Assembly (NCBI RefSeq): GCF_030012985.1
Contig: NZ_CP120233.1
Location: forward strand, 1,843,001 to 1,907,000
Source: Microbulbifer sp. VAAF005
GTDB taxonomy: Bacteria > Pseudomonadota > Gammaproteobacteria > Pseudomonadales > Cellvibrionaceae
Direction of reading: 5' to 3'
Length of the DNA stretch: 64,000 nt
Positions 5,316-53,801 of this stretch are shown here, piece by piece. A program made the translations under genes and the position numbers. How positions within the stretch are numbered: the stretch's first letter is position 1; each line of letters starts with the position of its first letter. The notes under the pieces are model-generated. The model did no database searches. It was not told where the DNA came from and was given only the letters and a program-made list of their open reading frames with translations.

Positions 5316-5933
5316 CTATGGGGCTCCCTGCCCGCTATAGTGACGGCACAGCCAGTAATCCACACTGAAAAACCGCCCTGCCCCACTACAAAATAGCGCC
5401 AACAACATAATGAAGTAGGTAGCGGCAAACTCAATACCATTTTTCAGGATGGTCACTCCTCCAGTTTCCACCAACCACTCATAATTGCCGTGCTCCTTGA
5501 GTAAACCGACAATCTTCTCTTTGCGCACTGAGGCTTCATCAATCAGATCCTTGCGCCACTCCCAGGGCACACTCAAGGTTTTATCCGGCAATGCAGACCA
5601 ACCGTTCTCCCAGTGGGCCGTATAAGCTGCCACTGCCATCACAAACATCAGTGGAAGCGCTACCAGGCGGGTCGCAAAGCCCAAAAGTATGGCAATACCG
5701 CCCAAAAACTCGGTCAAGGCCGCCAACCAGGCCATCAATAGTGGTGCCGGTAACCCTAGCCCCCAGTCCGGATTGCCAAACCAGGCTGCCACATCATCGA
5801 TATTGTTCATTTTGTTGAGGCCGGCAAGCACAAGAATTGGCGCCAAGTAGATACGCAGGGCAAGGGGCCCCAACCAGTCAATTTTTCCGGCAGCCCGCAA
5901 GAAGCAGGCATACCAGCGGCTCAAGGTAGTCAT
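5316..5933 (-). CDS. DoxX-family membrane protein
   Basis: A 205-residue protein with four or five membrane helices. ALRIYLAPILVLAGLNK, the middle FLGGIAILLGFATRLVALPL and the long-loop TAHWENGW are typical of DoxX/DoxD-like proteins, a widespread inner-membrane family of uncertain role, sometimes tied to thiosulfate or redox stress. It is the first gene of a possible DoxX-rhlB-acyltransferase run. A GTG two codons upstream (5939) is an alternative start; the ATG is preferred because a GGGG run precedes it. Confidence 0.8.
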   Translation of the reverse strand: MTTLSRWYACFLRAAGKIDWLGPLALRIYLAPILVLAGLNKMNNIDDVAAWFGNPDWGLGLPAPLLMAWLAALTEFLGGIAILLGFATRLVALPLMFVMAVAAYTAHWENGWSALPDKTLSVPWEWRKDLIDEASVRKEKIVGLLKEHGNYEWLVETGGVTILKNGIEFAATYFIMLLALFCSGAGRFFSVDYWLCRHYSGQGAP

Positions 5934-6100
5934 CTGCACCCCACACTCGCTCTGTTTCGCTGTATTTGTTCACTGTAGTCGAGCCAGAGGCAACATTTCT
6001 TACAGTAGACCGGTCAGACTGCTGTGTCAGAGGGAGTAAAGAGGAGAAACCCAGCTTAAGAGCGCAAGACTCCAGCCTGCGTATCTAGCGCCGCCACGCC

Positions 6101-8152
6101 CTAGGGCTCCAAGGCCAGAAAATCAATATTGGCAACGTCATTGCCGAATTTTGCACAGGAAGTAGGCTTATCCCAAACCACCCAGGCCAAATCATCGAGG
6201 ATAATATTCGTGCCCTCGGCAACCGCCCCCTGCAAACGCAGGCGATAGCCTTTAACCGCCTGCTTATCCAGCGGTGGAAAATCTACTCGAAACGCCTGCC
6301 AATCGCCCTTTCTGATTGCGACAGAACCGAAACACTCCTGCTCAGCAGACTCCAGCGATTGCGAAAAAGCACGCGCTCGGGGGGCATATTCCAAACAAAC
6401 TTGCAGCGATTGTGCCTGTGTCGAGCGGGCGTAGCCGAGCAGTGAGTGAAGTGCCTGTGGCGGCGCCTCCACCAATCGATGAAAGCCGCGGGTGACTGCT
6501 TCGGCAAGACCCCGGCTGTTCCCACGCAGCACCATCGAGTGATCTCCCGAGCGGGCAATTCCCGCATCGATACTACTGGCGGGGGACAGACGCCAAGTGG
6601 CGGGCTGCCCGGGCAGCAGTCGGTCGGATTCAAAATCACCGGTCACCAACAGATCGCGACCACTGGTACAGCTCGCCTGTGGATCAATCCCCTCGAGCGC
6701 CGGCAATTGCTGTTGCCAGGTCAACGGCAGCTTGCCCACCCACGAGCCCGTTGTAGGTGCCAACGGGGCAGTACCGGCGCTCAGTGCCTTGCGGGCCCGT
6801 TTATCACTATCAGGCAAAATAACCCCGTGTCCGCCACTGGCCGACAGGGACAGTCCTTTTAGAATGGATTGATGCTGTAGGCGGCGGAGAATATGCTGCC
6901 GCACAGCCCCAACCGCAGGTGTGGGCTGGTAGTGCTGGATATAGAGCGGCGCCACCTCAGCCCGCACAAACTGCTCGCCATCCATCCATACGTACAACAG
7001 CGCAGATCGGTGGGTCTCCTGAAAATACTGGTCAAATAAAAAATTGCCCAGGGAGTAAGCGATAAGCTTACCCCGGTATAACTCAAAGCCGTGCAGCACA
7101 TGAGGGTGATGGCCAACAACCAGATCGGCCCCCCGGTCAATGGCCAGCTTCATACGGCTCTGGCTTAGTTCAGTGGGCGCGTAACTGTACTCTTCACTGC
7201 CGTGATACTGCACCACCACCGGGCGCTGTTCAGCAGCTTCGCGGGCCACTGTGCGGGCTATATTCACTTCACTGCCCAAGGCAGCCCCGGCTTTTTCTCC
7301 CTCGGCCACCTGATTGGGGGAGAAGTTACCGCGCCAGCCCACAAAGCCCAATAGGCTGTATTGCTGTGAGCCTCCTTGCAGCAGAGCACTCTCGAGCGCC
7401 TGGGGCTCATTCAGCCCGCCCCCTGAAAATTTCAAGCCGCTCTGCTGCAAGGCGTCGAGCGTGCTCGTTACCCCGGCATCGCCAAAGTCATACAGGTGAT
7501 TATTACCCAAAGTGACGTAATCAATGCCCGCCCATTTCAATGCTGTCAGGGTGAGAGGGCGGGAATAGAAAGTGACACTTTTCGGCGTTTCCGTACCGGG
7601 CTTATCACCAACCAGAACCGCTTCCAAATTGACTGAAGCGATATCCGCATCGACAAGGTAAGGTTTAATCGGGGCCAGCAGCTGTTTAAACTGTGCGGCA
7701 TCACTGCCCTCACGCAGCAGGGGCAGGTCCCCCTTTAGCGGCTTGTAATAGCGCCGCCCTGTCATTAAATCGCCCGCAAAAGCCAACATAACCCGGCCGG
7801 GTTTTCGGGCGACCAGGGTAACGTCGGGAATTTTTCCATCGCTGAGCGTTAATTCATGGGCGGAAAAAGTATGGGTTAACGGGTAGTAGCCGGCCGCAGA
7901 AAATTTAAGCTGATAGATATTTTCGGCAGCCAGCGTCAGGCGGAAGCTCCCCTTGCGGGTAAAAACCACTCCATCATTATTATTGATCTCAACCCCAGCA
8001 ATCGCCTTACCCTGCTCATCCACTACCCGGCCGGTAATAACCGTATTGGGCGCTGCGGTTTTGGCAGACAGCCCGGTTGAGAAAATTATGCCGGCCAGTA
8101 ACAGGCTGAAACCCTTGATTAATTGGTGGCCCTTTCGCCCTATCCCGTTCAT
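6101..8152 (-). CDS. Secreted CapA-family (PgsA-like) protein with extra domains
   Basis: A 683-residue exported protein. A signal peptide covers about residues 1-30. Residues about 37-115 look like a carboxypeptidase-regulatory beta-sandwich (ITGRVVDEQGKAIAGV). The CapA metallophosphatase-fold domain follows: FAGDLMTG (125-132), SVNLEAVL, TLGNNHLYDFG and GHHPHVLHG carry the expected Asp, Asn and His residues. The last about 180 residues resemble a beta-sandwich binding module (LLVTGDFESD onwards). CapA proteins are best known from poly-gamma-glutamate capsule loci, but the ligase and partner genes (capB, capC) are not in this window. It is the last gene of the GGT operon, 51 bases after ggt1, with a GGGGAA ribosome site. 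Confidence 0.85.
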   Translation of the reverse strand: MNGIGRKGHQLIKGFSLLLAGIIFSTGLSAKTAAPNTVITGRVVDEQGKAIAGVEINNNDGVVFTRKGSFRLTLAAENIYQLKFSAAGYYPLTHTFSAHELTLSDGKIPDVTLVARKPGRVMLAFAGDLMTGRRYYKPLKGDLPLLREGSDAAQFKQLLAPIKPYLVDADIASVNLEAVLVGDKPGTETPKSVTFYSRPLTLTALKWAGIDYVTLGNNHLYDFGDAGVTSTLDALQQSGLKFSGGGLNEPQALESALLQGGSQQYSLLGFVGWRGNFSPNQVAEGEKAGAALGSEVNIARTVAREAAEQRPVVVQYHGSEEYSYAPTELSQSRMKLAIDRGADLVVGHHPHVLHGFELYRGKLIAYSLGNFLFDQYFQETHRSALLYVWMDGEQFVRAEVAPLYIQHYQPTPAVGAVRQHILRRLQHQSILKGLSLSASGGHGVILPDSDKRARKALSAGTAPLAPTTGSWVGKLPLTWQQQLPALEGIDPQASCTSGRDLLVTGDFESDRLLPGQPATWRLSPASSIDAGIARSGDHSMVLRGNSRGLAEAVTRGFHRLVEAPPQALHSLLGYARSTQAQSLQVCLEYAPRARAFSQSLESAEQECFGSVAIRKGDWQAFRVDFPPLDKQAVKGYRLRLQGAVAEGTNIILDDLAWVVWDKPTSCAKFGNDVANIDFLALEP

Positions 8153-8203
8153 CTGTTCCCCGCAACCGATGGCTTTTAGAGTGATAAATTTGGCGCGCTG
8201 CGC

Positions 8204-9961
8204 TTACTGCACAGCGACTGTTCCAGCATCGGGACGGCGGGGGTCAGAGGCACCATAAAACAATCCCTCCTTCCACATAATGGACTGCACACTGCCCATG
8301 GTCCGCCCCTGTTTCACCTTCTGCCCTTTTTGCAGCAACAGTTTGATCGTATCCGGACTAAAGCCAGGCTCCAGTTCCAATTGGTCCGGCAGCCATTGAT
8401 GGTGAATTCTGGGCGCGTGGACCGCATCGGCAATATTCATTTGGTGGTCCATAACATTGACCAACACCTGCAACACCGTAGTGATAATACGGCTGCCTCC
8501 CGGGCTGCCAGTTACCACATAGGGTTTGCCCTCGCGAAATATCATGGTCGGTGTCATTGAGCTCAATGGGCGCTTGCGCGCGGCAATGGCATTGGCCTCC
8601 CCTCCCACCAGGCCAAAGGCGTTGGGCACACCAGGCTTCGCGGAAAAATCGTCCATCTCATTATTCATCAAAATACCGGTACCTGGGATCACGATTCCCG
8701 AACCGTAGGAAAAATTAAGGGTATAGGTATTAGACACCGCGTTACCCTGCGCATCCATAACAGAAAAATGGGTGGTGTCAGGGCTTTCATAGGGCGCGGG
8801 GTTGCCCGCATGGATTTTTGCTGAGGGGGTCGCACTCGCCAGTGAAATACCCTCGGCCAATTCCCGCGCGTAGGCTTTACTGGTGATACCGGCAATCGGT
8901 ACGGCAAAGTGATCAGGATCGCCGAGGTGTTCACTGCGATCCGCATAAGCGCGCTTCATCGCCTCCGCCAGCAGGTGGGTCGCATCGGCACTGCCCGCCC
9001 CCATTTTACCGATCGGAAACTGCTCCAGAATGTTGAGCATCTGAATAATATGAACACCGCCGGAGCTGGTTGGCGGCATCGATACCACTTGATAGCCACG
9101 GTAATCGGTAGCGACCGGCTCGCGCTCTTGCACCCGGTAGTTGGCCAGGTCATCGCGGGTAATCAGGCCACCCCCCTCTTGCATCGCCGTAACAATTTTA
9201 TCGGCGATTGCGCCCTGGTAAAAAGCCTCCGGGCCGTCTTGCGCCAGCTGTTTTAAGCTCCAGGCCAAATCCTTTTGCACCAATACTTCGCCGGGCTCAT
9301 AGGGAATACCACCGCGCTTGTAGTAGGCTTTTGCTGTGGCCGTATTGGCTGTGAGCCAGGCCTGACGACTTTTCAGGTTCTCCGCCAAATCATAGGAGAC
9401 CACAAAACCTTTTTCTGCCAGTTCTATCGAGGGAGCCACAACTTCTTGCCAACTCATGGTCCCATACTTTTCCAGAGCATGGGCCAGTCCCGCCACAGTG
9501 CCAGGCACCCCTGATGAGAGGTGGCTGAAGCGGGCTTTTCTGGTATCCACATTTCCCTCAGAATCCAGATACATATCCCGGTGAGCTGCTGCCGGTGCCA
9601 TCTCGCGATAATCGAGCGCCACCACCTTATTCTCTTTAGCGAGGTAGACCAGCATAAATCCACCACCGCCAAGGTTCCCGGCCCTGGGTAAAGTTACTGC
9701 CAAGGCAATCCCTGTGGCCACTGCCGCATCCACCGCGTTGCCGCCCCGACGAAGAATATCTGCACCAATTTCACTGGCCAACTCGCGTTGGCTTGACACC
9801 ATTCCACCAGTACCGATTACCGGGTGATGAATACTGTCATAGCGGATTATCGCTGCACTTTCATCCACATGACTTGCCGCCTCACCCGTCACAGACACGA
9901 TCAGCAGTGTTGTCAGCAGAAATGATGATATCAATTGTTTGCTTTTCTCAACCATCAACAT
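8204..9961 (-). CDS. ggt: Gamma-glutamyltransferase, copy 1
   Basis: A 585-residue periplasmic enzyme of the Ntn-hydrolase fold that cleaves itself into two chains and removes gamma-glutamyl groups from glutathione and related peptides. A signal peptide covers about residues 1-29. NLGGGGFML (96-104) is the family's N-terminal block. The self-cleavage and catalytic threonine is T396 in SPDTTHFS, and SPGGSRI (486-492) is the substrate-binding GG loop. The ATG at 9961 has a good GAGAAG ribosome site. It starts 20 bases after the decarboxylase gene and ends 51 bases before the CapA-like gene, so the three are probably cotranscribed. The second copy in the same locus is similar in length and layout but clearly diverged. 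Confidence 0.93.
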   Translation of the reverse strand: MLMVEKSKQLISSFLLTTLLIVSVTGEAASHVDESAAIIRYDSIHHPVIGTGGMVSSQRELASEIGADILRRGGNAVDAAVATGIALAVTLPRAGNLGGGGFMLVYLAKENKVVALDYREMAPAAAHRDMYLDSEGNVDTRKARFSHLSSGVPGTVAGLAHALEKYGTMSWQEVVAPSIELAEKGFVVSYDLAENLKSRQAWLTANTATAKAYYKRGGIPYEPGEVLVQKDLAWSLKQLAQDGPEAFYQGAIADKIVTAMQEGGGLITRDDLANYRVQEREPVATDYRGYQVVSMPPTSSGGVHIIQMLNILEQFPIGKMGAGSADATHLLAEAMKRAYADRSEHLGDPDHFAVPIAGITSKAYARELAEGISLASATPSAKIHAGNPAPYESPDTTHFSVMDAQGNAVSNTYTLNFSYGSGIVIPGTGILMNNEMDDFSAKPGVPNAFGLVGGEANAIAARKRPLSSMTPTMIFREGKPYVVTGSPGGSRIITTVLQVLVNVMDHQMNIADAVHAPRIHHQWLPDQLELEPGFSPDTIKLLLQKGQKVKQGRTMGSVQSIMWKEGLFYGASDPRRPDAGTVAVQ

Positions 9962-9981
9962 AATTCTTCTCGCTCTTATTT

Positions 9982-11304
9982 TTAACCCACTACCTGCATC
10001 ATCTCGCCAAGCGTTTGCGGAGCCCGATATTGTTCAAATTGCACTGCACCTGCAGCGCTAATCCGATAACCGTAAACCGCCGGTGCCGGTAGGGAGTTAT
10101 AATAAAATGGGTTGGAAAAATAATATGCACCAGTATCGTGGAGCATTACATAATCGCCACTATCAAGTTTTGGTATTACCCTCCGGTTGGCGATGACATC
10201 CCCCGAGAAACAGCAGGGGCCAGCAATATCCTGCTCAATAAAGTTTTGCGTCTTACAGACACCGCTACTATCGAAAGAGGATAGGCGCAGAGGCCAGGCC
10301 TCCGGCATAAAAATAGTGCGCGCGGCAATTTGGGCACCGGCGTGAGTGGTGACGATATGCCTTCCGCCACTGTTTTTAGCGTATTCCACTCGAGATAAAA
10401 TACAGCCATTTTTTGCCATCACCGCACGGCCAAATTCAGTTTTCACCTTAAACTCGCCGGTGAATAATTCGGGAACTTCCTCTTTCAGGAAGTCGGCGTA
10501 CTGCAGGTAGGTGGGTGTCACTTTATCACTGTAAAAATTTACCCGTAGCCCCCCGCCAATATCAATTGAACGAATACGCTGCTCTCCGGCACGCTTGTTG
10601 ATCTCCTTTGCCAACGCCACTACTTTGGCGATCCCCTCTGCCATTAAATAAAAGGGGCAGCCCTGGGAGCCAACATGGGTATGGATTGTATTGAGCCAGG
10701 GGTAGTTTAAATAGTCATTAATAATACGCTCGCGATTGCCGCGATCATCTAGAGCCACACCAAACTTGGAGTGTAGCCCTGCGGTACTCATCGCCTTAAT
10801 CTGACCACTGCCCACTTGGGGATTAATTCTATACCCCAGCTCGCCGCGAGCATGGTCATCGCCGAGAATCTCTTGCACCCGCGACATTTCATCAAAATTA
10901 TCGATATGTAAAGTAGCACCCAGCGATAAAACCCGGCGAATCAATCCGAAGGTTTTTGCCGGCTCATCAAACACAATCTGATCGGCAGAAAAACCGGCAT
11001 TCAGGGCCTGCTGCAATTCACCGGGACTTGCCGTTTCGGCACTCATGCCAAGTTTTTTCAGCAGTTTTAATACCGCCGACATGCCGTTGGCTTTGACTGC
11101 AAAATGATGCGTAAAATGTTTTGGGAAAGCCTGATGTAAAGATTGTACCGTGTTCTCCACCCCGGCAATATCCACAAAACCGGCCAATGGCTCCTCCTCA
11201 CTCAGAAGCCCCTGCTGAATTGCTGCTTTTGTCAGCAGTTCATTATCGAGGTTTACGGCAACACCATCAGTTGCATATTCATCAATAAACTCATAATCAT
11301 TCAT
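9982..11304 (-). CDS. PLP-dependent decarboxylase of the LysA/DapDC (fold III) family
   Basis: A 440-residue cytoplasmic enzyme with no signal peptide. The PLP lysine is K71 in HHFAVKANG. H210 in HTHVGSQG and the phosphate loop SIDIGGGL (246-253) follow, and CCFSGDV (364-370) supplies the C-terminal Cys/Asp that acts across the dimer. This layout is that of diaminopimelate and related amino-acid decarboxylases. The usual EPGR motif reads EFGR (about 290-293), and sequence divergence plus the setting argue against housekeeping LysA. It sits between the two GGT genes, so its substrate may be an amino acid released from a gamma-glutamyl compound; that is inference. Confidence 0.82.
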   Translation of the reverse strand: MNDYEFIDEYATDGVAVNLDNELLTKAAIQQGLLSEEEPLAGFVDIAGVENTVQSLHQAFPKHFTHHFAVKANGMSAVLKLLKKLGMSAETASPGELQQALNAGFSADQIVFDEPAKTFGLIRRVLSLGATLHIDNFDEMSRVQEILGDDHARGELGYRINPQVGSGQIKAMSTAGLHSKFGVALDDRGNRERIINDYLNYPWLNTIHTHVGSQGCPFYLMAEGIAKVVALAKEINKRAGEQRIRSIDIGGGLRVNFYSDKVTPTYLQYADFLKEEVPELFTGEFKVKTEFGRAVMAKNGCILSRVEYAKNSGGRHIVTTHAGAQIAARTIFMPEAWPLRLSSFDSSGVCKTQNFIEQDIAGPCCFSGDVIANRRVIPKLDSGDYVMLHDTGAYYFSNPFYYNSLPAPAVYGYRISAAGAVQFEQYRAPQTLGEMMQVVG

Positions 11305-11401
11305 TGCAATTCGCTCCCCCGAATTAACGCTTTATAAAAAAGCAAAAATTATTATTCACTTTATATATTCCCAGGGATCTACCCCAACAAACTGCATTTA
11401 T

Positions 11402-13153
11402 TTAATCCAACCCAACGGTTTTGGCATTGGGCCGGCGGGGGTCTGAGGCCCCAAAATAATAGCCATCGCGCACCATAATCGATTGGCTACTGCCCATAGT
11501 CCGCGTCTCCTCAACGGTATGCCCTTTAGCTCTTAACAGCGCCATACTGTCGCGATTAAAACCCGGTTCAACCTCGAGAACATCCGGCAGCCACTGGTGA
11601 TGAATTCGCCGCTCATTGGTGGCCTCAGCAACATTCATTCCATGATCAATGACATTGCTAATTACCTGTGTCACCACATTGATAATGCGGCTGCCGCCAG
11701 GGCTACCTACCAGCAAAAAAGGTTTGCCTTCTTTCAGCACGATCGTAGGTGACTGCGAACTGACCGGGCGCTTACCCGGTTCCAACCGATTCGCCTTACT
11801 TGCAGAAAAACCCGTCGCCCCTTCAACATCCGCCTGAACAGAAAAGGTATACACCTGGTTATTCATCAATATCCCCGTTCCCTCAACCATATGGCCGGTG
11901 CCAAAAGAATTAGCCAAGGTGTAGGTATTGGATACTGCATTACCTTCAGCATCGATCACCGAAAAGTGTGTGGTCGAGGGGCTTTCCTCTGGCAAACTGT
12001 GTCCGCCGAGTTGCTCCGACGGCGTCGCGCGGTCGAGTTTGATCGTTGCTGCAAGCCGGCCTGCACGCTTTTTATCGATTAACCATTGCTGTGGAACCGG
12101 GTAAAAATCTGGGTCGGCCAAGTGCTGACCGCGATCGGCAAAGCTGCGCTTCATCGCCTCGGTCATTACGTGAAAAGTCTGTGCGGATCGCCCCCATTGC
12201 TCCAGGGGGAACTGCTCGAGAATATTCAGTGTTTCAATAATCGCCACACCACCGGAACTGGGCGGCGGCATTGAGACAACCTGATAGCCACGGTAATCAC
12301 CCACCACCGGGGTTCTGTACTTCACGGCATAGCCGGCTAAATCTTCACGGTCAATATGGCCACCTTGCCGCTGCATGGCCGTAACAATTTTGTCAGCAAT
12401 GGCCCCCTGGTAAAAAGCCTTTGGGCCGTGTTTGGCAATTTGCTTTAACGACCAAGCCAGGTCAGTCTGAAGCAGTATTTCTCCAGCTCGATAGCTGCTG
12501 CCATCCGCCTTAAAATACGCTTTTGCAGTAGCGGCATCCTGTCGCAGCCACTCACTTTTTGCCTGCAACAGCTGGGCCAGGTCGTAATTGACTGCAAAGC
12601 CCTTGGCTGCCAGCGTTATCGCCGGCTGTAACAACTGCGACCAACTGAGCTTACCACTACCGTGATCCCGCCATGCCCGGTGTAACCCGGCCACAGTGCC
12701 AGGGACACCTATAGCGTGCCAGCTGCGGCTGGTCTCACTATTTTTGCTGCCATCCCAGTGAAGAAAATCTGCGGCCGAAGCTCCACTTGGGGCTGTCTCG
12801 CGATAGTCGATTGCAACCGTTTTTTTACCGTCGGCGAGGTGAACCAGCATAAAGCCACCGCCACCCAAATTACCTGCTCGCGGCAGTGTCACCGCTAGCG
12901 CGAACCCGATTGCAACCGCCGCGTCTACTGCATTGCCACCGGCATCCAGAATCTGCACACCGACATCGCTCGCCAGTGCATTTTGTGTGGCCACCATCGC
13001 ACTGCGACCCACCACTGGGTGAAAAACATCCTCATAGCGAACAATCCCATCCCGGCCCATATTGTAAGGACCACTGGCGGCAAAGCTGAGAGGAGACAAC
13101 ACGGCGAGCAGCGTCGATATCAAGCTGACAGCTGTGTGCTTACGAATGGTCAA
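11402..13153 (-). CDS. ggt: Gamma-glutamyltransferase, copy 2
   Basis: A 583-residue secreted gamma-glutamyltransferase. The signal peptide covers about residues 1-26. NLGGGGFML (95-103), the catalytic T394 in SPSTTHFS and SPGGSRI are all intact, so it should self-process. The start is TTG at 13153, chosen because a strong AGAAGAGG ribosome site lies eight bases before it. It is separated from the receptor gene upstream by an intrinsic terminator, so it probably has its own promoter or depends on read-through. The decarboxylase gene follows after 97 bases. It shares long identical stretches with copy 1 (for example AYRVAL-type blocks are absent, but AFYQGAIADKIVTAMQ is common to both), which points to an old duplication. 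Confidence 0.92.
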   Translation of the reverse strand: MTIRKHTAVSLISTLLAVLSPLSFAASGPYNMGRDGIVRYEDVFHPVVGRSAMVATQNALASDVGVQILDAGGNAVDAAVAIGFALAVTLPRAGNLGGGGFMLVHLADGKKTVAIDYRETAPSGASAADFLHWDGSKNSETSRSWHAIGVPGTVAGLHRAWRDHGSGKLSWSQLLQPAITLAAKGFAVNYDLAQLLQAKSEWLRQDAATAKAYFKADGSSYRAGEILLQTDLAWSLKQIAKHGPKAFYQGAIADKIVTAMQRQGGHIDREDLAGYAVKYRTPVVGDYRGYQVVSMPPPSSGGVAIIETLNILEQFPLEQWGRSAQTFHVMTEAMKRSFADRGQHLADPDFYPVPQQWLIDKKRAGRLAATIKLDRATPSEQLGGHSLPEESPSTTHFSVIDAEGNAVSNTYTLANSFGTGHMVEGTGILMNNQVYTFSVQADVEGATGFSASKANRLEPGKRPVSSQSPTIVLKEGKPFLLVGSPGGSRIINVVTQVISNVIDHGMNVAEATNERRIHHQWLPDVLEVEPGFNRDSMALLRAKGHTVEETRTMGSSQSIMVRDGYYFGASDPRRPNAKTVGLD

Positions 13154-13269
13154 AACTACAACCTCTTCTTATGTTGTCATCGTCACTGATTGTATTTAAA
13201 GCGTCGAAGGCTCTATCGGGTACACCTAAGAAGTCGCGGTAATAGTACCGACTCAGACAGAGCTTCGAG

Positions 13270-13292
13270 AAAAAAGGGGGGAGTTACCCCCC
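13270..13292 (-). terminator. Intrinsic terminator after the TonB receptor gene
   Basis: On the minus strand six G, a five-base loop and six C are followed by a run of T (bases 13270-13275 read as A on plus). It lies about 25 bases after the receptor stop and before ggt copy 2, so it splits the locus into two transcription units or a high/low expression pair. Confidence 0.85.
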
Positions 13293-13316
13293 GTTAATAT
13301 CCATCAACAAAGCGCG

Positions 13317-16262
13317 TTAAAAGTTCTTTGCCACATCGAGGTAGACATAGCGGCCGCGATTGGAATAAAGGCTGCCGAAATACCCCATTTGTTCATCGGC
13401 AATATCTGGCTCTTCGTCAAAGATATTATTCATACCCAAACGAATCCTTAAGCCATCCCTCATTCCACCGACAAAGCGATAGTCCACATTAGCATTAACC
13501 GTTGTATAGCTATCGACAGGCAGTGCGGTATCCGGTGCAGCAGTGTCGCTGTCAGCCAGGGTACTGGTATCCGTCACAGCACTGGTGTACTGGGCAAAAA
13601 CACCTGCTCCCCACTGATCCTGACGCCAATTCATTGACAGCGTGGAGCGCCAGCGGGGACGACCATCCTCACCGATCAGGCTGCCGGCATTGGTGGCCAC
13701 TTCTCCAGCATCAATCAGGATTTGCATTTCCTCACTGGGGTCCTGATCAAATTTGATGAGATAAGCACCATTCCACTTCAGGTCAAAGTTGCCGATGTCA
13801 GTATCGAAGGAATACATCGCGCTAAAGTCCATACCACTGATTTCGCGCGGGTCCAAATTGAGATATTCATCCAGGAATAAAATAGGCTCCCCCACTGAAC
13901 CATCAGTGGTTTCTGCGCGAATGACATTGGGGTTGTATGAACCCTGCTCACGCAACACCGCATCCAGAGCCAAACCATTGCTCGCACCGAGAATGCCTAC
14001 CACACCCTCTTGCCTAATATCCCAGTAATCAGCGGTAAAGGTGAAACCATCAAATGGAGTTAGAACAAAACCGTAAGTATGACTCCAGTTTTCCTCTGGC
14101 TGCAGATCGGCATTACCCAGGCGCTGCTCTTCCAAGCCCACCGATTCCCCGGTCACCGGATCGGTACGGGTATTCACTACGGATATAGCCCCCTGGTGCA
14201 ATTGCATCAGGTTGGGTGCACGGAAGCCTTCGGAGTAGGCGCCGCGAATTTGAAACCAATCATTGACGTACCACGAGAGGGCTAACTTGGGCTTGGTCAC
14301 ACTGCCCACATCTGAGAAGTTTTCGTGGCGTAACGCTAACTGCATATCCAGGCTGTCTACCAGGGGAAGGTCGCGCAAGAGCGGCACCAACATTTCCGCA
14401 TACAGGGACATCACCCGGCGCGAGCCATCGGCATCCGGCGATGCACTACTGCCCATAATGTCACTGACATTCACCAACTCACCGGTCACCTCATCGGTAA
14501 ACTGGATAGTGCCATCGGAACGGTCATCGCGATTCTCATCAAAGCTCTCTTCGCGCCATTCAATACCTGCAGCCAGGCCCACATCCCCAGCCTGCAGGCT
14601 GAACAGGTTGGCATTAGAGACTTTGAAATCTGCCAGGGCCAGAGAGGTTTGACTCTGTCTTTTCACATTGATACGGAATGTATCCAGTACCGCCTCAGAG
14701 TTTGGCGTGGGATCGGTGAGACTGGTTGGGTCATCCACATCCAGACCGCTGAAGAGGTTGTAGGCATCTTCGGTGTCGAGCATCAGCGACTGTTGAAACA
14801 GGCTGTGACTGACCCGGTTATCGGTGCTGTCTATGGTCTCGGCCTCACTGTAAACCAAGCCAGTATCCCAATCCCAATCACCCCAGTTACCGCGCAAGCC
14901 ACTCACAAACCGATAGCTGGTGTCCACCACATTAATCTTGCGCAGCCCAACGTCGTAGGGGGTGAAGGTTGTCAGAGTAAAACCGAGCCCCTCATCCGGT
15001 ACATTCTCATCACCGGCAGGTACAATTCGATTGGGATTGAGAGTGCCATCATCAAAATATACGGGGCCAAAGGGGTTCCAGTAGTAATCCGCCGGCACTT
15101 CAAAACGACTATTCGAGAGCAGGCCGGCCGCTTCACGCACCCGATCAACTTCCGCTCTGTAATAGCCCAGCTCAGTATAAAATTCCGAGCCGTTTTCCAG
15201 TTCGTGGGTCAAGAAACTAAATAAATTGATCCGTTCAGAATCTGGTGACAACATCCGCACAGAGTTTCGGTTGCCGCGCAGTGCGCGATCTCCACTGCCA
15301 TCATCCAGACAAATATCAGAATCACTCAGGGAATAGGAACAATCACTCTCACCGACACTCGAGCCATCGTCCTGCACCAAATCGGTTGGACGAACATGCA
15401 GCAGACCCAGATCATCAAAATCAAAGGCACCCCAACCGTGGATGCTCGAGCGGTTATCAAGGCTGGTATCCCCCTCAAACAGAGAGTCGCCGGTAAAAAA
15501 GCCGCGAAGATCGGAATTGGCTGAATAATCGCGTTCGCTCGCATAGAAACCATTTTTGCTATAATAGGTTCCGGTCAAATTCAGCTTGGTAGCACCGTCA
15601 TTAAATTCAAAACCGTTAGCACCATTAACTGTGAATTCATCGAGTTCAGTACCCACTGAAGCACCGTAGCGCATATTGAGCATAGCGCCGTCATAGTCCT
15701 TCTTCATCACATAATTGACCACGCCGGCAACTGCATCCGCCCCGTAAAGTGCGGCGGCGCCATCGCGCAATACCTCTACCCGCTCCAGGCCATTGACTGG
15801 CAGGGTATTGGAGTTCACGGTCACCACTGGAATATAGTTTTCGGTCTGCGTGCCGGGGTGCAATACCATACGGCGGCCGTTTAGCAGCACCAGGGTATTG
15901 CCGGTTCCAATGCTGCGCAGGTTAATGGAATTTACATCCCCACGCGCCGCATTTACCCCGGTTGTCACCGATTCATTAAAACCAACTTGCCCCATCTGCG
16001 GGATAGAGCGCAACAACTCATCCCCGGAAGCCGCACCCATGAGTGCAATATCCTCTTCGCCAATAACCGATACCGGCAGAGTGCCTTCAACATCGGCTCC
16101 TTTGATTTGGCTACCGACGACAGCGACCTCCTCAAGTGCACTAGACTCAGTATTTTCCTCGGCTGCTGCCACCACTAACGGTGCCATTACCAGAAGTGAG
16201 CAACTGGATACTAGGTTTTGCCTGAAAAATGAACTGAGCTTAGATCGTTTTAAAAATGCCAT
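13317..16262 (-). CDS. TonB-dependent outer-membrane receptor
   Basis: A 981-residue outer-membrane channel that imports a ligand with energy from TonB. A signal peptide covers about residues 1-33, and a short stretch resembling a TonB box (EEVAVVGSQI) follows. The plug domain (about 50-200) contains INLRSIGTGNTLVLLNGRR and EVLRDGAAALYGADAVAG, and the rest is a beta-barrel that ends in the usual aromatic C-terminus (NF). The size and plug motifs fit the large peptide- and glycan-uptake receptors rather than siderophore receptors. A GAGGGG ribosome site precedes the ATG. It lies at the head of the GGT/decarboxylase/CapA locus and diverges from a LysR regulator, so its ligand may be a gamma-glutamyl compound; this is inference. 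Confidence 0.92.
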   Translation of the reverse strand: MAFLKRSKLSSFFRQNLVSSCSLLVMAPLVVAAAEENTESSALEEVAVVGSQIKGADVEGTLPVSVIGEEDIALMGAASGDELLRSIPQMGQVGFNESVTTGVNAARGDVNSINLRSIGTGNTLVLLNGRRMVLHPGTQTENYIPVVTVNSNTLPVNGLERVEVLRDGAAALYGADAVAGVVNYVMKKDYDGAMLNMRYGASVGTELDEFTVNGANGFEFNDGATKLNLTGTYYSKNGFYASERDYSANSDLRGFFTGDSLFEGDTSLDNRSSIHGWGAFDFDDLGLLHVRPTDLVQDDGSSVGESDCSYSLSDSDICLDDGSGDRALRGNRNSVRMLSPDSERINLFSFLTHELENGSEFYTELGYYRAEVDRVREAAGLLSNSRFEVPADYYWNPFGPVYFDDGTLNPNRIVPAGDENVPDEGLGFTLTTFTPYDVGLRKINVVDTSYRFVSGLRGNWGDWDWDTGLVYSEAETIDSTDNRVSHSLFQQSLMLDTEDAYNLFSGLDVDDPTSLTDPTPNSEAVLDTFRINVKRQSQTSLALADFKVSNANLFSLQAGDVGLAAGIEWREESFDENRDDRSDGTIQFTDEVTGELVNVSDIMGSSASPDADGSRRVMSLYAEMLVPLLRDLPLVDSLDMQLALRHENFSDVGSVTKPKLALSWYVNDWFQIRGAYSEGFRAPNLMQLHQGAISVVNTRTDPVTGESVGLEEQRLGNADLQPEENWSHTYGFVLTPFDGFTFTADYWDIRQEGVVGILGASNGLALDAVLREQGSYNPNVIRAETTDGSVGEPILFLDEYLNLDPREISGMDFSAMYSFDTDIGNFDLKWNGAYLIKFDQDPSEEMQILIDAGEVATNAGSLIGEDGRPRWRSTLSMNWRQDQWGAGVFAQYTSAVTDTSTLADSDTAAPDTALPVDSYTTVNANVDYRFVGGMRDGLRIRLGMNNIFDEEPDIADEQMGYFGSLYSNRGRYVYLDVAKNF

Positions 16263-16426
16263 TTCAATCCCCTCTTATTTTTTAGCTGTTGTGGGAAAGT
16301 GTTTTACTCGGCCCTTAACCCGAAATGTAATTATGCTGAAAATATCTTTATCATCTATTGACTTTAATTAAGGCACATATAACCTGTGTCTATCACCCAA
16401 AGCTTTTATAATAATATGGGTCTGAA

Positions 16427-17320
16427 ATGCGCCTACGTCATATTGAAGTCTTCCATGCTGTATACAACACAGGCTCCATTTCCGATGCAGCCAAATTACT
16501 GAACGTATCTCAGCCATCGGTCAGTAAAGTATTGAGCCATGCAGAGATGCAGCTTGGATTCAAATTATTCTTACGGGTGAAGGGAAAACTGGTCTCAACT
16601 TCCGAAGCCCACTCGCTAATTGAAGAAGTCCGCAAGATTTACCAGCAAATCAGTGCTATCAAGAAAACAGCAGAAAATTTAAAAGAGCACACTCACGGTC
16701 ATATTCGTGTAGTTTGTATGCCTGCACTGGGCCTGAATCTCCTGCCTGATGCGATTAAGCACTACCACAAAAAATTTCCTAATGTGACCTTCGATGTTAA
16801 AACGAAGCACTACGATCAAGCGATAGAATCACTCTACGAATACGAAAATGACTTAGCCTTGGTATTTACTGACCGAGACCACCCCAGTATTGAAGCCATA
16901 GAAATTGGCACCGGGCAACTGGTGCATATCGCTCCGGCAGACCCGGCCAGCAGCGAGCGAGAGCAAATTAAACTAAGCGATATCGATAAAGAGGGCTTTA
17001 TCTCAATTTCCAATACCGGGCCCCTGGGCGACCTACTGAGCCAACGTTTTTCTGCAGAAAACATTATGCCCAAGACCTCCATTCAGGCACAGACTTATTA
17101 CCTGGCCAAAAATCTGGTTGCGCGGGGACTCGGTTATTCCATTTTTGATGAGTTTACTGCTGCAGCAGATAATCGTGGCGAGGTGGTCTGCACACCTTTT
17201 AACCCACCGATTGAATTTAAACTGAAGTGCTTCCATCATGCCAACCAGCCGCTTTCCAAAACTGCAGCAGACTTTGTTGAAGACATCAAAAAGGCTTTTA
17301 GCGCTCTGCGGGCCAGCTAA
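16427..17320 (+). CDS. LysR-type transcriptional regulator
   Basis: A 297-residue DNA-binding protein. The winged helix-turn-helix is in residues 1-60 (FHAVYNTGSISDAAKLLNVSQPSVSKVL), and residues about 90-290 form the periplasmic-binding-like effector domain. It is divergent from the TonB receptor gene with 164 bases between the two starts, the usual arrangement in which a LysR protein controls its neighbour and itself. It converges with the small lipoprotein gene downstream of gltS. The effector is unknown; glutamate or a gamma-glutamyl amino acid would fit the neighbourhood. Confidence 0.9.
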   Translation: MRLRHIEVFHAVYNTGSISDAAKLLNVSQPSVSKVLSHAEMQLGFKLFLRVKGKLVSTSEAHSLIEEVRKIYQQISAIKKTAENLKEHTHGHIRVVCMPALGLNLLPDAIKHYHKKFPNVTFDVKTKHYDQAIESLYEYENDLALVFTDRDHPSIEAIEIGTGQLVHIAPADPASSEREQIKLSDIDKEGFISISNTGPLGDLLSQRFSAENIMPKTSIQAQTYYLAKNLVARGLGYSIFDEFTAAADNRGEVVCTPFNPPIEFKLKCFHHANQPLSKTAADFVEDIKKAFSALRAS

Positions 17321-17385
17321 CCCTGCAGCCAAAAAATTACGATAGCTCCACGGTAATATCATCGCGAAAGGCTATCACCAAGACG

Positions 17386-17886
17386 TCAATCGGCTGTCTG
17401 CTCTATGCTAGAACTCAGTGCTACCTTCAGACCATCCACCGAATCGACAGGAACAGCAGACCACCCTTTGCCACCCTGCCGATAGAGCGCGAAACCGTGC
17501 ACCGAAATACTATCTCCAGGCAGGTTGCCATTGGCCTCCAACCCCTCGACTCCCCTCTCCGCTGCGTTCAACAGGTGATGCAGAGGGCTGCGCCCCTGGC
17601 CATCCCACGCCGCAAAACGCCACTCACGGCGCAATTGCAACTCCGCATGATAATAAAACACCCATTGATCGCTCTCGCCATCAGAATTTCCCATCCATGG
17701 CTGGGAGCCGTAACGCTTAAAGCGCTGCACCTCCCACAACCCATCGCCAAAGGTGCTATCGAGCTGCGCCTGCAGGTTACCCTGCAACTCCGATATCGCA
17801 GGCCCTCTCGAGCAGCCAGGCAGTACCATCGGCAACAACAGGGTAAACACCAGTGCGACACAACGTTTTTTCAAAAAGCAAATCAC
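17386..17886 (-). CDS. Small lipoprotein, unknown function
   Basis: A 166-residue protein that I do not recognise. It starts with a lipoprotein signal whose lipobox is LPGC (cysteine at residue 25), so it should be anchored in a membrane facing the periplasm. The mature part is Trp- and Gly-rich, with no clear motif. The start GTG at 17886 is chosen because GAGGGG precedes it at a good distance; the frame is open to a GTG at 17910 that overlaps the gltS stop. It directly follows gltS (11 bases from stop to start), so the two are probably one transcript. Confidence 0.7.
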   Translation of the reverse strand: MICFLKKRCVALVFTLLLPMVLPGCSRGPAISELQGNLQAQLDSTFGDGLWEVQRFKRYGSQPWMGNSDGESDQWVFYYHAELQLRREWRFAAWDGQGRSPLHHLLNAAERGVEGLEANGNLPGDSISVHGFALYRQGGKGWSAVPVDSVDGLKVALSSSIEQTAD

Positions 17887-17897
17887 TCGCAGCCCCT

Positions 17898-19103
17898 CTA
17901 AAATATCCACGACAAGCCCATAAAGAGCTGAATAACCAGGGCGTTAGTAATATCGATAAAAAATGCCCCTACCAACGGCACAACCAAAAAGGCTTGTGGC
18001 GATGGCCCGTGACGCGACACCAGAGCTTCCATATTGGCAACAGCCGTGGGAGTTGCCCCCATCGCAAAACCACAGTGCCCCCCGGCGATAATGGCCGCAT
18101 CATAGGTTTTTCCCATGACCCGAAACGTCACAAAGTAACAGAACATCATCACCGCAATAGCCTGAACACCAATAATCAGCAACATAGGCCCGGCCAGACT
18201 GAACAACTCCCACACCCGCAAAGACATCATCGCCATCGCAAGAAAAATTGACAGCGACATAGTGCCCCACAGATCAACACAGGCTGTGCTGACCCGATAG
18301 CGGCCTGTAAAATCCAACAAATTGGTAACGAACACTGCCAGTAGCAACGGTATTAGAAAAGCTGGGATAACCAGCCCGGCCTCCACTAGCAAGCCGTGCA
18401 GGCCACCTCCAGCCAACATGCACCCAACAAGCAAAAACAGGGTCTCCATCATCCGTCGTGGAGTGACCGTATCTTTGTCGTCAACGTCGTAGGTCACCAT
18501 ATTATCGCTATGGTCTTTGCCTGCCGTGGGCTTGAGGTTGTGCTTGCGAATAAGACGCTCAGTGACCGGCCCGCCAATTAATCCACCTAACACCAGACCG
18601 AAAGTTGCTGTTGCCATGGCGATTTCCAGCACCCCCTGCAGGTTATAGATATTGCTGAATAAATCTGCATAGGTAGCTCCATTGCCGTGGCCGCCCGATA
18701 GGGTGACCGACCCCATCACCAAGCCAAACAGCGGGTGCATATCCGCCGACTTGGCCATCAGCACCCCGATTAGGTTCTGCACTATCAGCATCACAGTGGC
18801 CACGCCGAGAAACAGCACGACTTTAGGTCCACCCTTAATCAACAATTTAACACTGGCCGCCAAACCGACTGTGGTAAAGAACATCACCATTAGCAGGTTT
18901 TTCATGCTCATATCAAATGAGAAAGAAACATCAAACAGTGTGTAACCGAGCGCCGCTAACAGTGAAAATATCAGCCCTCCCACTACCGGTTCGGGAATAC
19001 TATTGCGGTTCAAAAATGGAATAACGTGCGACAGGTAGTAGCCGACGATCAGGATTAGCATTGCAATTAGCAGGGTGCCGAGAAGAGATACCTCAATGAC
19101 CAT
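17898..19103 (-). CDS. gltS: Sodium/glutamate symporter GltS
   Basis: A 401-residue inner-membrane carrier, the same length as the E. coli protein, that brings glutamate in with sodium. It has ten or more helices and two family signature regions: SVTLSGGHGNGATYADLF and IAGGHCGFAMGATPTAVANM, the paired re-entrant loops with GGHG and GGHCG. The ATG at 19103 aligns with the family start (MVIEVSLLGTLL); an ATG 19 codons upstream is in frame but adds a tail unlike the family. It lies next to the GGT locus, where released glutamate would need uptake, and a lipoprotein gene follows it. Confidence 0.93.
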   Translation of the reverse strand: MVIEVSLLGTLLIAMLILIVGYYLSHVIPFLNRNSIPEPVVGGLIFSLLAALGYTLFDVSFSFDMSMKNLLMVMFFTTVGLAASVKLLIKGGPKVVLFLGVATVMLIVQNLIGVLMAKSADMHPLFGLVMGSVTLSGGHGNGATYADLFSNIYNLQGVLEIAMATATFGLVLGGLIGGPVTERLIRKHNLKPTAGKDHSDNMVTYDVDDKDTVTPRRMMETLFLLVGCMLAGGGLHGLLVEAGLVIPAFLIPLLLAVFVTNLLDFTGRYRVSTACVDLWGTMSLSIFLAMAMMSLRVWELFSLAGPMLLIIGVQAIAVMMFCYFVTFRVMGKTYDAAIIAGGHCGFAMGATPTAVANMEALVSRHGPSPQAFLVVPLVGAFFIDITNALVIQLFMGLSWIF

Positions 19104-19281
19104 ATTTTCATTATCTTTCTTATACGACCGAAGAAGCCAAAATGGCAACGATGACGCCATCTTACACGACCCCGGTACCCAGCAACCTTTCTAATTTCAT
19201 CCCTCCCATAGCACCAGGTTATGCCCTCCCCAGAGGTGCACATCTATGCTTGCAGAACTCAAGTAATTAGAGAGTAATCCG

Positions 19282-19995
19282 GTGGGAAAAACTTACGTGC
19301 TGGTCCACGGGCTATTTCATGGAGGCTGGTGTTGGAGCAGGGTCGCCCACCTTTTGCAGGAGAATGGGCACCGAGTATTCACCCCCACCCACAGTGGCCT
19401 GGGAGAGCGCAAACACCTACTCTCTCCCTCTGTTGGTCTGGACACTTTTATCCAGGACCTTATCAATACAATCCTTTGGGAGGAGTTGCAGCAAGTGACC
19501 CTTGTGGGCCACAGTTTTGGAGGGATGGCCGCAACCGGTGCCGCCGACGCTCTGCCCGAGCGGGTGCACCGCTTGATCTACCTGGATGGCGCTGTTCCAG
19601 AGCCCGGGCGCCCATTCAGCAGCCAACTCCCCAGCGGTATTGAAGAGCAGCGGCTCAAGCAGGCACAGGATATCGACGGTACTCTCTGTATTATGCCTCC
19701 ACCACCAGAAGCCTTGGGGATAACCCAGCCAGATGATATCAACTGGCTAAAACGCCGTATGACCCCGCACCCCATCAAAACGTTACTGGATCCCATCCAC
19801 TTAAAACGCTCTCCTGAGCAGGGCCCGCCGTGTACTTTCATTCACTGTACCCAACCCGAATACCCACCAGCCGTCTACAGTAGCCACAAGGCTAAGCAGA
19901 TATCCGGGTGGACATATCGGGAAGCAGAAATAAACCACGACTGCATCATCAATAAGCCCGAAATTGTGGCCAAACTACTTGAGGAAAGTCCGTAA
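19282..19995 (+). CDS. Alpha/beta hydrolase (esterase-like)
   Basis: A 237-residue cytoplasmic protein of the plant methyl-esterase/hydroxynitrile-lyase-like subgroup. It has the oxyanion HGLFHGGWCW (9-18), the nucleophile S78 in GHSFGG and a C-terminal His (H219 in INHD). The N-terminal strand TYVLVHG and THSGLGER support this. The substrate is unknown; relatives hydrolyse small esters. The start is GTG with AGAGAG upstream. It diverges from gltS and precedes a MATE gene on the same strand by 180 bases. Confidence 0.85.
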   Translation: MGKTYVLVHGLFHGGWCWSRVAHLLQENGHRVFTPTHSGLGERKHLLSPSVGLDTFIQDLINTILWEELQQVTLVGHSFGGMAATGAADALPERVHRLIYLDGAVPEPGRPFSSQLPSGIEEQRLKQAQDIDGTLCIMPPPPEALGITQPDDINWLKRRMTPHPIKTLLDPIHLKRSPEQGPPCTFIHCTQPEYPPAVYSSHKAKQISGWTYREAEINHDCIINKPEIVAKLLEESP

Positions 19996-45914: not shown

Positions 45915-46712
45915 AACCTGAGCCTTAATTTTATTATTAAATGGAACTCCCAATAAGAGCCCGCCAACTTTCCACGCTCAGGCAAACCCTTGTCAATAGA
46001 AGTAATTCTTAAATTGAGGATAATGACATCAAACTCTTTAATGCGGCGTAATGTTCAACACGAGTATTTAAGATTAAAAACAAAAATCAGAAATCGCCCC
46101 AAAATAGTTACAATTGAAATCGCCCAAAAGAATACTAGAGCCAACATTTACCATCAAAATATAAACTCAACGCACTTAAAAAACACCAAATAAATTCAAA
46201 ACTTATTGACTACCCAACCTCACAGCCGACCACAAGAATGAATATCAAATATCTTCTATCAAAAGAGTCCTATTTAGCTTATGCCTAACCAAGAACAAAT
46301 TGTATTTTCGAGCAACACAATTCCTCAGAGCGAAAATTCAAGTTTAAAACCTCCAAATCCAACTCAATTTTTGCGCTCCCCTCTCCTCAGCAGGGGAAAC
46401 TCCTTCCAATTAGAGTAAATATTGGCACTAGCAATTCTCTTTAATCTCATCAACTTTCATCTAAAAGTCTGCATAAAATTCCCTATCTCTACTCCACACA
46501 ACATCATCTTGCGAAGTATTTACTCACCACTAAGTCAGGATATGAACTCATATCATCATTAAAAGCTGCATACAAATTGAGCCAGCCCGCAACTTTAACT
46601 AACATTTGTTACTCAAATATGCAAAAATACCCTCCGAAAAAGACCACTCAAAGAATTGATATATCACATCATTACTTTGTGTATTAGATATCACAACGCA
46701 CTGGATTATCAG
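45915..46712. other. Long AT-rich gene-poor gap
   Basis: Nearly 800 bases without a gene I can support. A 67-codon frame at 45990-46193 has no family look or good ribosome site. There is no tRNA, transposase remnant or repeat that I can see. Confidence 0.35.
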
Positions 46713-47186
46713 ATGGAAAAGGTTGCTATATTTGTTGATGTGCAAAATGTTTATTATACATGCAGACAAATATATAAAAGAAACTTTGATTACAATAAGT
46801 TTTGGCAGGAAATAACGAACAATAGAAAAGTAGTAAAGGCTATAGCCTACGCCATCGAACGAGGCGATAAGAAACAGCAGGAGTTTCAAAATATATTGAG
46901 ATCTATCGGCTTTGAAGTGAAATTAAAGCCCTTCACACAAAGGTCAGATGGATCTGCCAAAGGAGATTGGGATGTAGGGATAACTATAGATGCCATAGAG
47001 TATTCAAGTTTCGTGGATACTGTAATTTTAGTTTCAGGAGATGGCGATTTTGACATTCTAGCTCATACTCTAAGAGTGAATAGAGGCAAGAATGTTGAAG
47101 TGTATGGCGTTCCGGAACTAACAGCTGGAGCATTAATTAATGCAGCAAGCAAATTCACACCTATTGAAACCAGATTACTACTTTAA
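46713..47186 (+). CDS. NYN-domain (LabA/DUF88-type) nuclease-like protein
   Basis: A 157-residue protein. VAIFVDVQNVYYTC at the N-terminus holds the first conserved acidic residue and Asn, WDVGITIDAIEY the second, and LVSGDGDFDILAHTLR the Asp cluster. This is the PIN-like NYN fold, often an RNA nuclease. The ATG at 46713 gives the family start. It stands alone between two long AT-rich gaps. Related proteins occur in RNA-decay, toxin-antitoxin and defence contexts, so its target is open. Confidence 0.85.
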   Translation: MEKVAIFVDVQNVYYTCRQIYKRNFDYNKFWQEITNNRKVVKAIAYAIERGDKKQQEFQNILRSIGFEVKLKPFTQRSDGSAKGDWDVGITIDAIEYSSFVDTVILVSGDGDFDILAHTLRVNRGKNVEVYGVPELTAGALINAASKFTPIETRLLL

Positions 47187-52974: not shown

Positions 52975-53072
52975 ATACCCAAAACCTCCAATCAATTTGT
53001 AATCATTCAAAATCATCGAACGAGGTATAGGATATGGATAAATATGACACTATATGGCATATTTTGATAACT

Positions 53073-53801
53073 ATGCGCACATCTACCCTCTCACGAATAG
53101 ATAGACTTGAAGTTATCACCGCCCGATTAAAGTCGGACGAACCCATCACGATTGGTGAAATTGCCAAGGAAGTGGGCGTTAGCATTCGGACGCTGAATCG
53201 AGATATAGAGGTGTTGAGAAGTCGAGGCTTGCCGATTGAAACGGATGTGGGGCGCGGTGGTGGAATCCGTTTGGACCAGCGCTGGGGCGTTGGTCGTGTC
53301 AACTTAAACTATACGGAGGCTGTTGACCTGATGATTAGTTTGGCTATTGCTGAACAGATGAAGTCCCCCCTCTTTATGGCACACCTAAGTAGCATCCGCC
53401 ACAAGGTAATGGCTTCCTTTTCATCGTCCATGAAAAGTAAAGTGAATGGTATAAAGGCACGTATCATCATCGGAAAATCGGCTTCCGAGGTTGTGCTCTC
53501 AAATTTCTTAACTCCAAAGCGTAAAACTGTCGAGAAGCTCCACCAGGCTTTCTTAATGCTTCAACGTATAAAGATCACCTACTGTGACGAAAGCGGAAAA
53601 GAAACACTACGAACTATTGAACCCCATTACCTCTTTCTTAGTTATCCCGTATGGTACATCCTAGCCTGGGACAAGCTCCGTGAGGATATTCGGGTATTTC
53701 GCTGTGACAGGATTAGGAAAATTCAGGCTCTGAATGAAGACTTCAAGCTAATTCCACTTATTAAATTTAAAAATAAGAGAGATAAAATACCTCCATCTTA
53801 A
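53073..53801 (+). CDS. HTH/WYL-type transcriptional regulator (YafY-like)
   Basis: A 242-residue regulator. The N-terminal winged helix (residues 1-60) includes ITIGEIAKEVGVSIRTLNRDIEVLRSRGLPIE, seen as a pattern. The C-terminal part has HYLFLSYPVWYILAWDKLREDIRVFRCDRI, the WYL-like ligand domain. Such proteins bind nucleic acids or small ligands. It diverges from the DUF4345 gene. The ATG at 53073 gives the family start; another ATG at 53034 is in frame. Confidence 0.85.
   Translation: MRTSTLSRIDRLEVITARLKSDEPITIGEIAKEVGVSIRTLNRDIEVLRSRGLPIETDVGRGGGIRLDQRWGVGRVNLNYTEAVDLMISLAIAEQMKSPLFMAHLSSIRHKVMASFSSSMKSKVNGIKARIIIGKSASEVVLSNFLTPKRKTVEKLHQAFLMLQRIKITYCDESGKETLRTIEPHYLFLSYPVWYILAWDKLREDIRVFRCDRIRKIQALNEDFKLIPLIKFKNKRDKIPPS

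Follow-up and report, generated by a model that had tools for sequence, protein, structure and literature searches.

Polysaccharide utilization loci of Gram-negative bacteria encode an outer-membrane receptor, exported hydrolases, an importer, and a regulator as one unit. Here, we describe an eight-gene island of Microbulbifer sp. VAAF005 that lies in a 64,000-nucleotide stretch of contig NZ_CP120233.1 (positions 1,843,001 to 1,907,000; the whole stretch is referred to below as the window). Like the polysaccharide loci, the island brings together a receptor, exported hydrolases, an inner-membrane importer, and a regulator in one acquired unit, but its cargo would be an amide and not a glycan. 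The island is a horizontally acquired, recurring unit, and in our judgment there is an even chance that it serves the utilization of a gamma-glutamyl oligomer or peptide that probably contains D-glutamate, with a decarboxylase acting on a D-amino acid without a distal amino group. No description of such a locus was found in the open-licence literature, which does not prove that none exists.

Among described systems, the degradation of poly-gamma-glutamate (PGA) by the lid-loop-negative gamma-glutamyltransferase (GGT) of Bacillus is similar in that an exported GGT trims gamma-glutamyl chains (PMC8062742, in part). It differs from the island in several respects: the host here is Gram-negative; the receptor, decarboxylase, sodium/glutamate symporter (GltS), and regulator are encoded in one island; and one of the two GGTs (GGT2) has a lid loop.

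The eight genes lie in a single insertion

The flanks of the island were searched for in 48 Microbulbifer genomes (that of the host and 47 congeners). A right-flank orthologue of at least 61% identity is present in eight congeners (G072, G084, G092, G093, G094, G106, G107, and G108), and in all eight the two flanking genes are divergent neighbors 129 to 145 bases apart, while 13.3 kb separate the two flank matches in the host genome. In the remaining 39 of the 47 congeners, the right flank has no clear orthologue, and the site is therefore unreadable. When six of the eight congener regions were compared with the window by blastn, the left alignments ended at 5983 to 6004 and the right alignments restarted at 19238 to 19366; the closest congener has 46 bases where the host has 13,254. 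Because the flanks directly adjoin in every readable congener, the eight-gene block is an insertion (5984 to 19237; 13.25 kb), and its content is exactly the eight genes (Table 1). The empty site also disfavors vertical inheritance within the genus, and by parsimony a gain is preferred over repeated loss. The G+C contents of the insertion (0.521) and the flanks (0.533 and 0.558) are near one another, and no integrase or transposase gene is among the eight.

The initial annotation had placed the eight genes exactly, and its names for them are backed by Pfam and NCBIfam. It had set GltS and the lipoprotein just beyond a five-gene unit; both in fact sit inside the same insertion, the bounds of which are tighter than those first drawn. 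The five genes of the minus-strand run are separated by gaps of 51, 20, 97, and 163 bases. By eye, signal peptides are present in GGT1, GGT2, the CapA-like protein, and the TonB receptor, and the decarboxylase has neither a signal peptide nor a lipobox. The 174-amino-acid lipoprotein has no family match in Pfam or NCBIfam; in Porticoccus W117, a relative of it shares one open reading frame (ORF) with a TAXI solute-binding domain. A conserved LysR operator was considered and dropped: no motif common to genomes was found in the receptor-LysR gap, and a scan for T-N11-A inverted repeats in five stretches upstream of the receptor or LysR gave a single candidate, in the Porticoccus locus (L011). 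The host genome is a single contig of 5.40 Mb. The gene at the left edge of the island encodes an HvfX-family maturation protein of copper-related ribosomally synthesized and posttranslationally modified peptides (copper-RiPP; 217 bits, cutoff of 80).

Table 1. Genes of the island, its divergent intergenic region, and the two flanking genes (positions in the window)
Feature	Position	Strand	Basis or remark
HvfX-like gene (left flank)	5316-5939		
CapA-like protein (PGA_cap)	6101-8152	-	Pfam PF09587, 183 bits; N-terminal carboxypeptidase-regulatory-like domain
GGT2, canonical E. coli-type GGT with lid loop	8204-9961	-	Pfam, NCBIfam, residues
Fold-type III PLP decarboxylase, family beside LysA	9982-11304	-	Orn_Arg_deC_N, 124 bits
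GGT1, GGT clade with altered 433/411 residues	11402-13153	-	Alignment, tree
TonB-dependent outer-membrane receptor	13317-16262	-	Pfam Plug and TonB_dep_Rec_b-barrel
Divergent receptor-LysR intergenic region, 164 bases	16263-16426		Likely LysR operator and promoters (putative)
LysR-family regulator	16427-17320	+	Nearest NCBIfam model PRK11013, 176 bits (cutoff, 288)
Small lipoprotein, 174 amino acids	17386-17910	-	Lipobox by eye
GltS sodium/glutamate symporter	17898-19160	-	Glt_symporter, 413 bits; TIGR00210 (gltS), 424 bits (cutoff, 311)
Alpha/beta hydrolase (right flank)	19282-19995		

Two GGTs with different active sites

GGT1 and GGT2 are 55% identical, match the Pfam family G_glu_transpept (the two matches scoring 623 and 577 bits), and exceed the 358-bit cutoff of the NCBIfam model TIGR00066 (560 and 634 bits, respectively). 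Compared with Escherichia coli ggt, GGT2 has the full canonical site (Arg114, Thr391, Asn411, Asp433, Ser462, Ser463, and the oxyanion glycines) except for the change of Gln430 to Glu, and it carries a lid loop (PGVPNAFGLVGG). GGT1 keeps Arg114, Thr391, Ser462, Ser463, and the glycines, but has Ala and Thr at positions 411 and 433, respectively. Its lid-loop region aligns without gaps but lacks the Pro, Tyr, and Gly of the loop (Pro438 and Gly449 are replaced).

These changes are shared by a large group of proteins. In an alignment of 122 sequences (GGT1, GGT2, and the best 120 of 4347 matches), the 98 sequences nearer GGT1 all have Thr433, Ser449, and Ser, Gly, or Ala at 411, never Asn411; all of them keep Thr391, Arg114, Ser462, Ser463, and Gly484, and 96 keep Gly483. 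Asp433 and Asn411, together with the canonical Thr, Arg114, Ser462, and Ser463, are present in all 24 sequences nearer GGT2. After 14 locus sequences were added, the 100 tips with Thr433 grouped into a single clade of the same size (support, 0.909); each of the 12 added sequences that fell outside had Asp433. GGT1 belongs to a separate GGT clade, for which the usual name is probably wrong. Among the matches listed, the closest GGT1 is that of Microbulbifer sp. SSSA002 (95%), and Microbulbifer sp. ZKSA006 has a GGT2 96% identical to that of the island.

In E. coli GGT, the D433N mutation is reported to convert the transpeptidase into a hydrolase that also gains activity on a glutaryl substrate, in which the amino group is missing (PMC8062742, in part). 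Because of this precedent and the loss of the Asp433 and Asn411 contacts, the alpha-amino group of the donor read by GGT1 is likely blocked, absent, or turned. GGT2 likely takes small donors.

The presence of a lid-loop-positive E. coli-type GGT is what would be expected if the island scavenged glutathione or other small gamma-glutamyl peptides for sulfur or nitrogen and one of the amino acids set free were the substrate of the decarboxylase. This is close to what was first proposed for the locus, but we consider it distinctly unlikely, given that tripeptides, which pass through porins, need no TonB receptor, that the canonical alpha-amino contacts are lost in GGT1, and that no enzyme for cysteine or glycine is among the eight genes.

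A third GGT of the genome (G000:C1:3248804-3250345; L140) is distant from both island enzymes and has Asp433 and Glu411.

A probable decarboxylase family beside LysA

The pyridoxal 5'-phosphate (PLP)-dependent decarboxylase had been described as having the LysA fold. The fold was borne out, but membership in LysA was not: the protein scores 211 bits against the LysA model TIGR01048 (cutoff, 297.9), and 79 bits against NF052544 (DokD, D-ornithine/D-lysine decarboxylase; cutoff, 700). A structure model (pLDDT 84.9, pTM 0.86) confirms fold type III only, residues 334 to 336 near Arg340 being below a pLDDT of 50. The protein has in common with LysA the fold, the PLP lysine, the catalytic Cys, and the two Args for the distal carboxylate (Arg293 and Arg329, equivalent to R249 and R285 of the Thermotoga maritima diaminopimelate decarboxylase [TmDAPDC]). 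Unlike LysA, it has the motif CFxGD instead of CExxD, with Phe366 in place of the Glu by which LysA recognizes the distal amino group. This Phe and both Args are present in all 82 locus sequences (the gene under study being counted twice) and in 120 of 120 protein matches, while LysA-like relatives have Glu in 28 of 28 cases. Further differences from LysA are the change of Asp65 to Glu, the replacement of the Tyr four residues past the Arg by Met, Ala, Val, Leu, or Thr, and an Arg340 in all family members checked. The decarboxylase belongs to a family distinct from LysA, in which the distal pocket is changed, and the usual LysA name is probably wrong. A LysA paralogue for lysine synthesis was ruled out by the pocket residues, the score, and a stronger superfamily member elsewhere in the genome (C1:2871842; Orn_Arg_deC_N, 263 bits), which aligns as LysA and has the diagnostic Glu.

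The closest experimental counterparts are engineered forms of TmDAPDC, as far as they are described in part of PMC8277567. In that enzyme, the two Args bind the distal carboxylate, Glu315 binds the distal amino group, and variants mutated at Glu315 work on D-amino acids. As in these mutants, the island decarboxylase has lost the Glu and kept the distal Args, and E315F has the same residue. The mutants are single changes made by engineering and are weak on short substrates (PMC8277567, in part), whereas the family described here is natural and has further pocket changes. A literature search for "D-glutamate decarboxylase," limited to open-licence PMC and hence not proof of absence, found nothing.

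BtrK decarboxylates gamma-glutamyl-acyl carrier protein, and the island enzyme might likewise convert an intact gamma-glutamyl compound to a 4-aminobutyryl product, with the GGTs acting on other bonds. This appears quite improbable: the decarboxylase is cytoplasmic and the GGTs are exported (by eye), so they would have no common compound unless peptides crossed the inner membrane, and the island encodes no peptide transporter.

Two decarboxylases 38% identical to that of the island (L137, G125:C191; L138, G051:C67) share the Phe switch, although their gene contexts are unrelated, and possibly represent a second branch; in L138, an AMP-ligase-like gene (by eye) adjoins the decarboxylase.

The CapA-like protein and the question of a capsule

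CapA/PgsA proteins are best known from PGA synthesis, which would suggest that the island remodels or makes a gamma-glutamyl polymer of the cell surface, with CapA as a biosynthetic protein. A capBCA capsule operon has capB and capC adjoining capA; neither is among the eight genes (Pfam and NCBIfam; a genome-wide search was not made), and none was noted in the remaining long window ORFs, the first 70 residues of which were inspected by eye and ten of which were examined with Pfam. To that extent, an earlier statement that the window lacks capB and capC is supported. Since the receptor, GltS, and the hydrolases point to uptake as well, we regard surface polymer synthesis as highly improbable.

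The only solved relatives of the CapA-like protein found by sequence are entries of the peptide epimerase MslH, for which the model NF038314 gives 61 bits (cutoff, 700). Among the MslH residues named in the part of PMC10406935 considered, Glu44, Asn87, His88, Asp91, His259, and His295 have CapA counterparts by our own count on the alignment, His261 has none, and Asp11 is outside the alignment. PGA_cap proteins may have these residues generally, so that they do not single out an MslH-like epimerase role.

The genome encodes a second PGA_cap domain (G000:C1:4666589-4667326) within a 1639-amino-acid ORF (L139:3289-8205, minus strand) that adjoins ATP-binding cassette exporter-like and HlyD-like genes (by eye).

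Recurrence of the island genes in other genomes

Porticoccus W117, Endozoicomonas G2_1, and a Woeseiaceae metagenome-assembled genome have the same gene families in other arrangements, which, together with the single insertion, supports the initial view that the genes belong together. The five-gene order itself was not re-found. The Porticoccus locus has GltS and the TAXI-lipoprotein, LysR, and then TonB, M14, decarboxylase, GGT2, D-aminoacylase-like, and CapA genes; a GGT1 relative (70%) lies apart from it, amid flagellar-looking genes (by eye). In Endozoicomonas G2_1, the decarboxylase-GGT2 pair stands alone (L010, identical to L135 of G265), and another contig (L141) has LysR and GltS followed by TonB, M14, family-3 solute-binding protein, TonB, GGT1, TAXI, M20, and creatininase genes. 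The Woeseiaceae locus (L020) has TonB and CapA, followed by LysR, M14, decarboxylase, Na+/H+-antiporter-like, and D-aminoacylase-like genes. The recurring pairs are decarboxylase-GGT2, adjacent in three genomes (the window, L010, and L011), and TonB-GGT1, adjacent in two (the window and L141), where LysR and GltS lie near the receptor; the other genes are shuffled.

Of 370 genomes sampled from the class, three, including that of the host, encode the decarboxylase at an E value of ≤1e-90, and with at most three GGT candidates scored per genome, two of these three (the host and Endozoicomonas G2_1) are the only ones with a GGT at ≤1e-190 to GGT1. Both hold one GGT1-type and one GGT2-type enzyme. 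The chance of this overlap (calculated by hand) is 3/68265, or 2/369 without the host genome, which was chosen for it. The best decarboxylase relative in 143 other genomes of the host's own family is 38% identical.

A contig scan gave 564 decarboxylase relatives, the best 80 of which were kept as loci; neighbor families were counted over those 80, with seed genes drawn from the same loci. The counts are lower bounds, the loci being 4 to 21 kb long, and have no control set: D-aminoacylase-like genes in 11 (L011, L016, L017, L020, L029, L056, L059, L064, L071, L078, and L083), TonB in 8 (one weak and 4 kb off), gamma-glutamyl hydrolase C26 in 7, LysR in 5, M14 in 4, EgtC-like amidohydrolase in 4 (Dongia and relatives), GGT in 3 (one weak), separate TAXI genes in 3, and CapA in 2. 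The contexts have glutamate or amide-bond hydrolysis in common, yet they are not uniform. Three D-aminoacylase-like neighbors tested (168, 176, and 217 bits) each had PRK09061, presumably N-acyl-D-glutamate deacylase, as their best model, below its 340-bit cutoff.

The M14 and D-aminoacylase-like neighbors bear on a further explanation, peptidoglycan scavenging, in which stem peptides would be imported by the receptor and split into L-Ala, D-Glu, and diaminopimelate by the GGTs and, in the relatives, by these enzymes, and the decarboxylase would act on diaminopimelate or D-Glu. The gamma-D-Glu-diaminopimelate bond is a common natural gamma-glutamyl bond, an M14 relative weakly matches MpaA (18 bits; cutoff, 157), and the LysR protein is nearest to PRK11013, the E. 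coli activator of lysA. With no amidase, lytic transglycosylase, or murein ligase among the eight genes, we judge this explanation unlikely, though not negligibly so.

In three loci of Dongia and relatives (L028, L033, and L054), the decarboxylase lies amid choline-kinase-like (by eye), DMGDH-like, and EgtC-like amidohydrolase genes. A fourth locus (L081) ends at a contig edge, and the EgtC-like amidohydrolase is the sole one of those neighbors shown.

Proposed function of the island

We observed the anatomy of the island, its single insertion, the recurrence of its parts, and two altered active sites, and from these we infer every catalytic step of the following scheme for the utilization of a gamma-glutamyl compound. 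The TonB receptor, by its family, would import the compound into the periplasm. GGT1, with its lost Asp433 and Asn411 and changed lid loop, would cut gamma-glutamyl bonds on which an ordinary GGT does poorly, the alpha-amino group being blocked or D-configured, and GGT2, the site of which is canonical, may then trim free N-terminal gamma-glutamyl units. CapA, as its family suggests, might bind, cut, or epimerize the chain, and GltS would import the released glutamate. In the cytoplasm, the decarboxylase would remove CO2 from a D-amino acid with a distal carboxylate and without a distal amino group, the conversion of D-glutamate to gamma-aminobutyric acid (GABA) being the leading candidate reaction. 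LysR, given its position, presumably controls the island genes. The initial idea of gamma-glutamyl scavenging is partly supported: the gene set fits it (two GGTs, GltS and TAXI importers, and the M14 and D-aminoacylase-like genes of relatives), but the order of the five genes did not recur elsewhere.

Several observations weigh against this scheme. Its weakest step is the conversion of free D-glutamate to GABA: in TmDAPDC, the D-glutamate activity of E315F, with Phe as here, was undetectable, and among the seven mutants tabulated in the part of PMC8277567 considered, E315Q alone had such activity (5.9 mU/mg). No protein of the host genome exceeds the TIGR00700 cutoff for GABA transaminase (best, 249 versus 507 bits; seven matches below the cutoff). 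The lid loop of GGT2 is a feature proposed to shut out polymers such as PGA (PMC8062742, in part). The host genome has only weak partial matches for M14 and D-aminoacylase-like genes (36 and 25 bits). A urocanase-like gene lies near the decarboxylase in 16 of 61 actinobacterial loci (one representative confirmed with Pfam), so its substrate need not be gamma-glutamyl derived everywhere. The neighbor counts are uncontrolled, and the class searches, which scored the top three or four candidates per genome (at most three for GGT), may have missed members.

A broader claim can be made only tentatively and is less likely than not. The decarboxylase family, whose members occur in Gammaproteobacteria, in Rhodospirillales, and in many Actinobacteria, would be the first decarboxylase of D-glutamate (or of a D-dicarboxylic amino acid) known from nature. 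Together with the GGT1 clade, rebuilt for the cleavage of gamma-glutamyl bonds that are D-configured or N-blocked, it would form a dedicated, horizontally acquired pathway for D-glutamate-rich gamma-glutamyl polymers with GABA as its product. If true, the island would offer a genetic handle on the recycling by marine bacteria of D-glutamate-rich, protease-proof gamma-glutamyl material, and many proteins named diaminopimelate decarboxylase, as well as a clade of GGTs, would part from the functions their names imply.

Other features of the window

Two patatin-like phospholipases (47937 to 48953 and 60364 to 61530) have matches among the PADLOC phospholipase effectors (210 and 141 bits). They sit in the right part of the window, where the G+C content is low, with an NYN protein (46656 to 47186) and a WYL-like regulator (53034 to 53801) nearby.

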